From NCBI GenBank assembly GCA_030599175.1, contig JAUVON010000064.1, positions 1-10,871 of the forward strand: DNA of 10,871 nt. The letters are read 5' to 3'. Shown here one piece after another: positions 7,366 through 10,696 of this stretch; positions within the stretch are counted from its first letter, which is position 1, and each line of letters begins with the position of its first letter. The notes below the pieces were generated by a model that saw only the letters and a list, made by a program, of their open reading frames with translations, made no database searches and had not been told where the DNA came from. The translations under genes and the position numbers were made by a program. Origin of the DNA: Desulfobulbaceae bacterium (lineage in GTDB: Bacteria > Desulfobacterota > Desulfobulbia > Desulfobulbales > Desulfocapsaceae).

Positions 7366-7512
7366 CTAGGAGCTTGTCCGAGAATAAGGATTTTTTCTCA
7401 AATCGAGGTTTTTCGAAAAAATAAGCACAGTCATATAATTGATATTACGAGCATTATTTTTTCGAAAATATCGAAGAGTTGAGGGGAAATGCATTCTCGG
7501 ACAGGCTCCTAG
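7366..7512. mobile_element. MITE-like palindromic element with CTAG duplications
   Basis: A 139-bp element (7370-7508) is bounded by CTAG direct repeats (7366-7369 and 7509-7512). Including these, the ends form 20-bp inverted repeats (7366-7385 and 7493-7512) with one mismatch; the right end reads ATTCTCGGACAGGCTCCTAG. The interior is also near-palindromic: TTCGAAAAAATAA (7412-7424) is the reverse complement of TTATTTTTTCGAA (7453-7465). No transposase is encoded, so it would be non-autonomous, mobilised by an enzyme elsewhere that recognises the same ends. I cannot assign an IS family. It ends 30 bp before the selenoprotein start codon, so it may affect that gene's transcription. Confidence 0.8.
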
Positions 7513-7541
7513 AAATTCATTCTATTCAATTAGAGGTCTCT

Positions 7542-8414
7542 ATGAAATATTCTAAAATTTATGCAGCAGGGGTGGCTTGTCTCTTCCTTGCTGCAAGCGC
7601 CCATGCTCTCACAGCACCTTCGGAGGGCCAGGACAACAGGATCGAGTGGAAAGTATTACAAAGCTGGCCCACTGAAAGCAAGACAATGGACATGGTCCAC
7701 TCCTTAGACGGCAAATATGTTTATATCCTCAACGATAAAAACCAGGTTCAAATTTTCAACAGGCAGGGCCAGCTTCAGGGAAGTATTCCGGTTGAAGAAA
7801 GTGTCTCTGCCATCGATATAGCTCCCCAGGGGGAAACACTCTATCTCGTTGATAATGTGAAAAACACTTTTAGTGCTGTCTCGGTTTCATTTGTAGTGGA
7901 TGTGAACACCGCAGACTCTCCTTTCGAAGGTCCAGCCGATGCACCGGTCACAATTGCGGTCTTTACTGACTTTGAATGACCTTACTGTGGCAAAATTCTG
8001 CCACTTCTCGAGCAGGTGCTCGAAAAAAATCCGGAAACAGTAAAAATAGTATTTAAAAATATGCCATTGAAATTTCATAAATCAGCTGAACCTGCTGCCC
8101 GTGCTGCCCTCGCTGCAGGAGAGCAGGGAAAATTCTGGGAATTTCATGACAAACTTTTCGCTGCAAAAAAATTAAATACCGCTGTTATAAAAGAGATAGC
8201 AACAGACCTTGAGCTTGACATGGTGCGTTTTGAAAACGATATGAAGTCCGCCAAAATCAAATCAAAGCTGCAAAAAGATCTGATTGATGCCAAAAAAGCA
8301 GGGGTTACAGGTACACCTACAATATTTATTAATGGACGTATTCCCAAACAACGCAGTCTCCAGGGGTTTCAGGCAATTATTGATGATGAGTTGAAAAAAA
8401 TCAGTGGACAATAA
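7542..8414 (+). CDS. Secreted DsbA-like selenoprotein with in-frame UGA (Sec) in a UxxC active site
   Basis: Read through the TGA at 7977-7979, this is a 290-residue protein in one frame. A signal peptide covers residues 1-22 (KIYAAGVACLFLAASAHA, AxA cleavage), so it acts outside the cytoplasm. Residues about 30-115 resemble one or two beta-propeller blades (DGKYVYILNDKNQVQIF). Residues about 130-290 are a DsbA/thioredoxin fold: FTDFE-U146-PYC149-GK at the active site, a helical insert, and the cis-proline loop GVTGTPT with Pro259. The UGA occupies exactly the first Cys of CxxC, and homology continues without a break on both sides. Hairpins lie 7 and 28 nt beyond the UGA. ATG at 7542 has AGAGG 5 nt upstream; the frame is open further up into the mobile element, but that extension precedes the signal peptide and is rejected. 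It is likely a thiol-disulfide oxidoreductase or isomerase; its substrate is unknown. A nonsense-mutated pseudogene is the alternative. Confidence 0.85.
7977..8023 (+). promoter_or_regulatory. Selenocysteine codon and candidate bacterial SECIS element
   Basis: After the UGA (7977-7979) come two hairpins inside the coding sequence. The first is GTGGCA (7987-7992)/TGCCAC (7999-8004) with a 6-nt loop. The second is TCGAGC (8008-8013)/GCTCGA (8018-8023) with loop AGGT. The second apical loop begins 34 nt after the UGA and has G in its first two positions, within the accepted geometry for bacterial SECIS elements. Its GCAGGT segment recalls the E. coli fdhF apical loop (from memory). SelB would bind such a hairpin to deliver Sec-tRNA. 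Confidence 0.65.
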
Positions 8415-9499: not shown

Positions 9500-10696
9500 G
9501 TGCCAACTGACCTGACCAGCCAGTATACTTATGCTAAAGGAGCTGTTAACCGGAAGCGTATAAAAAACCTTTCCAACTGGCTGCTTAATCAATGTGGTGT
9601 GAAAGAGTACACTGTCTCTATTTTGCTGGTTGATGATAAAAAGATATGCCAACTCAACAATCAGTACAGGCAAAAGAATCAACCAACCAACGTGCTCTCT
9701 TTTCCTTTTGCAGAAGGCGCAGATCGCTCCCTTTTGTCTTTACCTGTAAGAGAACTAGGTGATATCGTCATCTCTGTGGACACAGCCTTTCGGGAATCCA
9801 TAGAGTACAGACAGAATTTTCACGATCGAATTGCGTGGCTGCTCATCCACGGTTTGCTGCACCTGCTCGGCTATGATCATGAAAAATCAACTGAACAGGC
9901 CCAAAAGATGTCCGATAAAGAAAACGAGTTACTCAACAAGCTGCATTTTCATAGGAGAACAATGATGACAAAACTTGCAATCAATGTGGATCATGTTGCA
10001 ACTATTCGACAAGCTAGAGGAATTAATGAACCTGATCCAGTTGCAGCGGCCGCTATCTGCGAACTAGCTGGAGCATCCGGAATTGTTGTTCACTTACGTG
10101 AAGACCGGCGACACATGCAGGACCGAGATATCTATCTACTTCGCCAGACCGTGAAAACTACACTCAACCTGGAGATGGGTGCAAATAAGGAGATTATCAA
10201 AATTGCCCTTGACCTCAAACCTGACATTGTCACCCTGGTCCCTGAAAATCGCCAGGAACTGACTACAGAAGGTGGTCTCGATGTCATTTCACAAAAGAAA
10301 AAAATAGCAAAAGTTATAGATAAGATGGAAAAAAGGGGTATTCCTGTTTCGATTTTCAGTGACCCCGACCCCAGGCAACTAAAAGCAGTAAGTGAGATAG
10401 GAGCAACTTTTGTTGAACTCCATACGGGGAGGTATTGTGAAGCTGCAAGTGAGGATGCCCTGGAGCACGAGTTTCAACTGATTGCTACTGCAGCAGAAGA
10501 GGCTCACCAGCTAGGTTTACGTGTTTTCGCCGGCCATGGACTTGATTATCAAAACACAGCGCCCATCGCTGCTCTCGATATGATAGAAGAACTTTCAATT
10601 GGCCATGCAATAATCTCAAGAGCTGTTTTTACCGGACTGGATCAAGCCGTTAAAGAAATGGCGGCGATCATCAACCAGGCTTCTCTTTCATTTTAA
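9500..10696 (+). CDS. ybeY: YbeY endoribonuclease fused in frame to PdxJ
   Basis: The open frame encodes 398 residues with two complete domains. Residues 1 to about 153 are YbeY, a zinc metalloprotein needed for 16S rRNA 3' maturation and ribosome quality control. It shows NVLSFPF (64-70), LGDIVIS (86-92) and the zinc motif with His117, His121 and His127 in [11 protein letters not shown]. Residues about 156-398 are PdxJ. The expected stop after the YbeY C terminus ([14 protein letters not shown]) is missing, and a good AGGAG precedes the internal ATG. Separate PdxJ production is therefore likely even if the fusion is made. A one-base slip just before the junction would give TTT TCA TAG, so an indel or sequencing error in the ybeY tail is a real alternative. 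The GTG start at 9500 has only a weak SD-like TGGA. The gene lies 20 bp after phoH. Confidence 0.85.
9965..10696 (+). CDS. pdxJ: Pyridoxine 5'-phosphate synthase (PdxJ), internal start
   Basis: From the ATG at 9965 this is a 243-aa TIM-barrel enzyme, the standard PdxJ length. It condenses 1-deoxy-xylulose 5-phosphate with 3-amino-1-hydroxyacetone phosphate to form pyridoxine 5'-phosphate in the DXP-dependent vitamin B6 pathway in the cytosol. The family blocks are all present: [17 protein letters not shown] at the N terminus, [42 protein letters not shown] and [18 protein letters not shown] near the C terminus. AGGAG at 9953-9957 lies 7 nt before this ATG (4 nt before the adjacent ATG at 9962), an ideal initiation context. 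The same frame continues upstream into YbeY without a stop, so the protein may exist as a separate enzyme, as the C-terminal half of a fusion, or both. The TAA stop is at 10694-10696. Confidence 0.93.

Follow-up and report, generated by a model that had tools for sequence, protein, structure and literature searches.

A probable DsbA-like selenoprotein with a predicted two-bladed N-terminal domain in a Desulfobulbaceae bacterium

The window, a 10,871-nucleotide stretch of DNA from a Desulfobulbaceae bacterium (assembly GCA_030599175.1, contig JAUVON010000064.1), carries on its + strand a dsbA-like gene (7542..8414) that contains an in-frame TGA at codon 146. Comparison of related sequences supports the decoding of this UGA as selenocysteine (Sec): the codon alternates with cysteine codons among relatives, a hairpin of the selenocysteine insertion sequence (SECIS) type tracks the TGA form, the part of the gene after the UGA is under purifying selection, and tRNA-Sec, SelB and SelD are found in the genome. 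On balance, the product is probably a periplasmic DsbA-like selenoprotein that depends on SECIS-driven Sec insertion and acts mainly as a disulfide reductase or isomerase, with an N-terminal domain that would join subunits. A first-pass annotation of the window had proposed a UPYC selenoprotein hidden by a UGA, and the same four lines of evidence support that proposal.

Reading frame and alternation of TGA with cysteine codons

The gene is a single frame from ATG at 7542 to TAA at 8414, 290 residues with one internal TGA (7977-7979) at the first active-site position of UPYC, and it encodes a signal peptide, then a small all-beta domain, then a DsbA/thioredoxin domain. The signal peptide (residues ~1-22, ending in AHA, 7542..7607) was recognized by eye and is a low-confidence helix in the structure model. 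The all-beta domain spans residues ~34-114 (7641..7883) and the DsbA/thioredoxin-fold domain residues 126-282 (7917..8387), where PDB matches accompany Pfam matches to PF01323 (DSBA; 71 bits, cut-off 25.6) and PF13462 (Thioredoxin_4; 88.2 bits, cut-off 23.2). The second active-site residue, Cys149 (7986..7988), and Pro259 of a TPT motif (8316..8318), which from the family we take to be the cis-proline position, are both invariant in alignment A1 of 63 sequences; this full-length structure alignment was built from 44 homologous proteins, out of 120 listed, together with 18 loci. Open reading frame (ORF) calling breaks the gene into ORFs of 166 and 132 residues, a split that the first-pass annotation had foreseen; it had also correctly placed the sole TGA of the frame at 7977 and reported Cys149, the TPT loop and Pro259 as intact downstream. 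Its description of a frame running from a signal peptide to a thioredoxin fold is right as to both ends and missed the conserved all-beta domain that lies between them.

A match to the protein occurs in 37 of the 38 genomes searched, the window's own included, most of them aligned across codon 146. A first scan of relatives yielded 117 encoded relatives, from which 80 loci were kept; 79 of these span codon 146 at their best match, and a tally of rows gives TGA in 21 and TGC or TGT in 58. Among 69 distinct 51-nucleotide regions, taken from 84 loci on both strands that match from before residue 100 and including the window copy (L102), codon 146 is TGA in 29, TGC in 29, TGT in 11 and nothing else. 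Since so many genomes match and the codon is always one of these three, neither the gene nor its TGA is a matter of chance; the earlier placing of the TGA at the first catalytic cysteine agrees with the 40 regions that have a cysteine codon there. Every one of the seven genomes from the window's genus has the TGA form, and the closest named relative, a Desulfobulbaceae metagenome bin (L022), is 94% identical. These loci with a tblastn match starting before residue 100 form the N+ set, of which L062 (start 99) and L073 and L074 (start 94) may be without the N-terminal domain. What looked like a frame break in one congener (G002, loci L028/L109) turned out to be an assembly stretch of 125 N.

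Synonymous and nonsynonymous divergence (dS and dN) from the congener L103 are 0.314 and 0.026 on the 5' side of the UGA and 0.215 and 0.012 on its 3' side. Against L104, L105, L106 and L030, the last from the culturable relative Desulfopila sp. IMCC35008, which has the TGA form, dS has reached or almost reached saturation, and in each comparison dN is lower after the UGA than before it. These values argue for strong purifying selection on the part after the UGA, and the decay of the downstream half in homologs that the first-pass annotation had named as telling against its proposal was not found.

SECIS hairpins

Two hairpins follow the UGA within the coding sequence. Hairpin I (7987..8004) has 6 bp and a 6-nt loop. 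Hairpin II (8007..8024), the likely SECIS, has a 6-bp stem in the window copy (7 bp in others), a 4-nt loop AGGU at 8014-8017, 34 nt from the UGA to the loop and an energy of -9.1 kcal/mol. On every point it agrees with the bacterial SECIS (bSECIS) model as given in the relevant part of PMC13188914: a loop of 3-9 nt, a stem of 4-16 bp, G in the first two loop positions, a spacing of 16-37 nt and an energy of -7.5 or lower.

Conservation of the pairing follows the codon. Hairpin II keeps six or more of its 7 pairs in 29/29 TGA regions versus 3/40 Cys regions, and hairpin I five or more of its 6 pairs in 24/29 versus 3/40. Covariation was assessed in subsets of the available sequences, namely 20 TGA sequences (18 distinct) and 17 Cys sequences, the latter excluding 9 distant rows out of 26 listed. 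In the 18 distinct TGA rows five pairs of hairpin II have changed on both sides, in 16 cells, a count reached by 1 of 500 shuffles; the covariation score of the TGA rows is 0.243 versus 0.123 in shuffles, with 0 of 500 as high, while the same structure in the Cys rows scores 0.100, with 434 of 500 shuffles as high. The SECIS hairpin, 27-28 nt 3' of UGA146, would recruit SelB with Sec-tRNA so that ribosomes insert Sec.

Selenocysteine machinery and points weighing against Sec insertion

The window's own genome has a tRNA-Sec with a UCA anticodon (77.2 bits), a SelB (368 bits) and two SelD (361 and 338 bits), all above cut-off, each SelD having one in-frame TGA. The two selD loci are L017 and L018, and selD fragments lie besides on contig C369. 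Matches to this machinery under cut-off, which occur in 14/14 control genomes, were not counted. Further afield, the deep-Sep table of PMC12013277, so far as the part concerned goes, lists two Desulfosediminicola genomes with the values 43 and 40 in what is taken to be the column of known selenoprotein genes, and Sec-rich relatives are therefore to be expected. The word Dsb is not in the main text of that paper, and PMC8318568, on Sec in marine deltaproteobacteria, makes no mention of Dsb, disulfide, thioredoxin, Desulfobulb or Desulfocaps.

Several observations weigh against Sec insertion as set out here. Of the genes selA, selB, selC and selD, to which the first-pass annotation had pointed, all but selA are accounted for by the matches above; selA was not found in the own assembly, which is 86.8% complete, and to that extent one of the findings that the annotation had named as refuting its proposal does literally occur. 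SelA has a match in 29 of the 38 genomes, 27 of them above cut-off (that of G014 is weak and under cut-off only), and the TGA form occurs without a SelA match in five of the 38, namely the own genome (G000), G001, G003, G004 and G017. The single-contig genome G011 likewise has no SelA match, though a shorter DsbA-like gene in it has an in-frame TGA. On the RNA side, hairpin II is retained in three Cys relatives (L040, L120 and L165), it is found in only one of 11 distant TGA regions that match the thioredoxin part only (plus-strand loci), and an Rfam scan of the window returned no RNA family at the hairpin, only three tRNAs.

Because selA is present in three of the seven genomes of the genus (G002, G005, where it is partial at a contig edge, and G006), its absence from the own genome is read as an assembly gap. 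SelA and the TGA form occur together in G006, whose genome is a single contig. By our tally the SelA match starts at most 550 bases from the contig start in eleven relatives, two of the matches being partial at the very edge, and assembly breaks beside selA therefore seem common. We infer that such breaks explain the absences of selA; that in G011 is not explained in this way. The hairpins in the three Cys genes may be read as relics, most clearly in L040, and the result with the distant TGA regions indicates that hairpin II belongs to the close group.

Two explanations that dispense with Sec altogether can be weighed with the same evidence. That the TGA is a nonsense mutation or sequencing error in a CPYC gene would fit the two short ORFs of the annotation and the missing selA; the occurrence of the TGA form throughout the genus and in many other genomes, the SECIS that tracks it and the low dN/dS beyond it leave this explanation with a very slight chance, and for practical purposes refute it. 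General recoding of UGA in the organism, for example to tryptophan, would account for one in-frame TGA being read through; it is refuted, and is the least probable of all the explanations, as lon, clpX and tig all end in TGA, which the first-pass annotation had already used to discount it and which shows that other genes of the window use TGA as a normal stop, and as homologs have Cys, not Trp, at codon 146.

Distribution and Sec/Cys switching

The gene is widespread: of 193 genomes sampled for the class, all of which belong to the window's order, 185 have a match with an E value of 1e-40 or lower. For a tree of 60 rows (29 Sec, 31 Cys), 9 of the 69 regions were dropped, six under 38% identity plus L055, L073 and L074. 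The best tree has 15 Sec/Cys changes and its well-supported branches alone force 9; a smaller 34-row tree has 9 changes, 6 of them forced. These trees do not separate gain of Sec from its loss, and checks on the 60-row tree warn of long branches (L062, L125, L129, L131 and L128) and of the joining of L125 with L131. Some genomes, e.g. G020, G010 and G029, have paralogs, so some of the switches may involve paralogs. The clearest single case is L040 (3436-3486): this Cys gene, with CAFC, retains both hairpins in full, and its supported sister (100/98), L036, is a TGA gene; a recent change from Sec to Cys that left a relic SECIS is likely here.

A second DsbA-like protein with one in-frame TGA is seen in ten genomes (G007, G009, G010, G011, G020, G023, G026, G029, G031 and G033), in open frames of 198-230 residues (466 in G033) that are 37-41% identical over about residues 117-287 and have no match to the N-terminal domain. 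L061 and L066 each have three adjacent DsbA-like stretches with an in-frame TGA.

The N-terminal domain and relation to known systems

The N-terminal domain is all beta in both AlphaFold2 models, that of the full-length protein and that of the domain alone, with seven strands in residues 48-114 in addition to one at 34-37. From its matches to propellers it is predicted to form two four-stranded beta-propeller blades. The best Foldseek match is 6r5x (E 2.6e-4, root mean square deviation 1.8 over 65 columns), which the part of PMC6805158 concerned describes as an eight-bladed propeller self-assembled as a tetramer of two-bladed WD40 fragments; that protein differs in being an engineered construct with no catalytic domain. 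In the VIA-align list numerous complete WD40 propellers match about equally well, and AztD propellers occur among the many matches. By sequence, the top-ranked PDB entry was a WD40 repeat protein, brought there by a large number of weak repeats. No Pfam propeller model is above cut-off in the window, the best being PF23389 at 19.6 bits against a cut-off of 27. In the whole-model VIA-align comparison the listed rows covered residues 94-290 only.

The protein is supported as a member, in a widespread gene, of the DsbA-like UxxC selenoproteins (PF01323), a kind known since 2005 from the Sargasso Sea (PMC1088965) and treated again, as far as the sections concerned go, in a bacterial survey of 2006 (PMC1794560) and a review of 2026 (PMC13188914). 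It shares with them the DsbA fold, the UxxC motif, a UGA with a SECIS downstream and the existence of Cys homologs. It differs in that the relevant sections of these three papers name no N-terminal propeller-like domain for them, and, unlike that account, the window group has repeated Sec/Cys switches within one order; the two-blade domain and the frequency of switching are what a specialist would not have expected.

No NCBIfam model takes the protein above cut-off. The thioredoxin-like domain is shared with NF041057, the Rcas_1661 family of thioredoxin-like (seleno)lipoproteins, which PMC13188914, in the part that treats it, calls 'DsbG-like'; however, the 73.1 bits over residues 121-282 are far under the 190-bit cut-off, the N-terminal part is unmatched and no lipobox is apparent by eye. 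DsbC and DsbG likewise have an N-terminal beta region before the thioredoxin fold (87 residues in DsbC), but the DsbG and DsbC models give 29.8 and 16.6 bits against cut-offs of 124 and 215, and the N-terminal domain here is propeller-blade-like instead. The trimeric disulfide isomerases ScsC of Proteus mirabilis and alpha-DsbA2 of Wolbachia carry helical extensions, unlike the all-beta domain here. Both of these enzymes use Cys.

Activity, redox partners and alternative functions

After export, Sec146 would attack disulfides and Cys149 would resolve the mixed selenide-sulfide, as the UPYC motif and the fold suggest. The enzyme would work mainly as a reductase or isomerase of wrong disulfides and would be kept reduced by a membrane partner of the DsbD/CcdA type. 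The first-pass annotation had likewise inferred a secreted selenoenzyme in thiol-disulfide exchange. The two-blade domain may hold several subunits together, as DsbC, ScsC and alpha-DsbA2 are joined through N-terminal regions unrelated to it, giving what is presumably a multi-headed periplasmic disulfide reductase/isomerase. A bolder arrangement is put forward tentatively: with two blades per subunit, three or four subunits could together complete a propeller of six or eight blades, with several Sec DsbA heads arranged in a ring, a new isomerase architecture. In the open-licence PMC papers searched no propeller or two-bladed domain joined to a thioredoxin or DsbA selenoprotein was found, nor oligomerization of a two-bladed propeller with a trimer or lectin.

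Partners and fold bear on whether a reductase/isomerase is the right description, and some of what was seen tells against it. The oligomeric form is drawn from models of single chains, a DsbD_TM family protein was not found in the own genome, and weak VKOR matches under cut-off occur in G003 and G004. An alternative that keeps Sec insertion but makes the protein an oxidase or a general thiol oxidoreductase is rather unlikely; the lack of a DsbD_TM match would suit it, and the catalytic domain is about equally near DsbA, BdbD and ScsC-like structures, so the fold does not decide between oxidase and isomerase. As to the oxidizing partners, however, DsbB was not found in the own genome, the sole genome searched for it, VKOR is above cut-off in 5 of 38 genomes and in none within the genus, and an extra N-terminal domain is a feature of isomerases with this fold. 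DsbD_TM family proteins are above cut-off in 23 of the 38 genomes; within the genus, named by size, G001 and G005 have DsbD-sized proteins, G006 CcdA-sized ones and G003 and G004 none. The pattern of partners leans towards a reductive role.

A function in copper or zinc handling, ScsC-like or AztD-like, in place of protein folding is improbable: the catalytic domain has ScsC structures among its best matches and the N-terminal domain has AztD propellers among its many, but the neighbours in the window are proteostasis and housekeeping genes with no metal genes among them, and the gene's presence in nearly all genomes sampled from the order also speaks against such a function.

Genomic surroundings

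The gene's neighbours in the window are tig, clpP, clpX, lon, phoH and ybeY-pdxJ. By tally over 26 named loci, 20 have phoH downstream and 14 have tig upstream; contig ends cut some of these loci, and others (L025, L030, L038 and L042) are without tig in the available bases. In the window ybeY and pdxJ (9500-10696) form one open frame with no stop between them, as they do in 19/19 related loci having both, which is either a conserved fusion or a pdxJ start inside the frame; no YbeY-PdxJ fusion protein was found in the open-licence PMC papers searched.

A likely ribosome-binding site, AGAGGT (7532..7537), was read from the sequence, with a similar motif upstream in relatives. An element resembling a miniature inverted-repeat transposable element (7366-7512; 139 bp, with CTAG on both flanks and the inverted ends GAGCYTGTCCGAGAA) stops 29 bases 5' of the start codon. 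It occurs 29 times in the own genome at a length of at least 113 bp, the window copy included, and is missing at this site in the congeners L103, L022 and L028; with it the promoter of the dsbA-like gene may have been replaced or shifted.

Significance

An exported enzyme has been cut in two here by ordinary annotation. Its family, being widespread and often syntenic, with at least nine supported switches and in L040 a Cys gene that keeps both hairpins, allows the question of why Sec is gained or lost to be put directly. If the two-blade domain assembles, it would represent a novel route to an isomerase with several heads, and the enzyme, if this is true, would be a selenium counterpart of DsbC and ScsC carried on a propeller built from separate chains.
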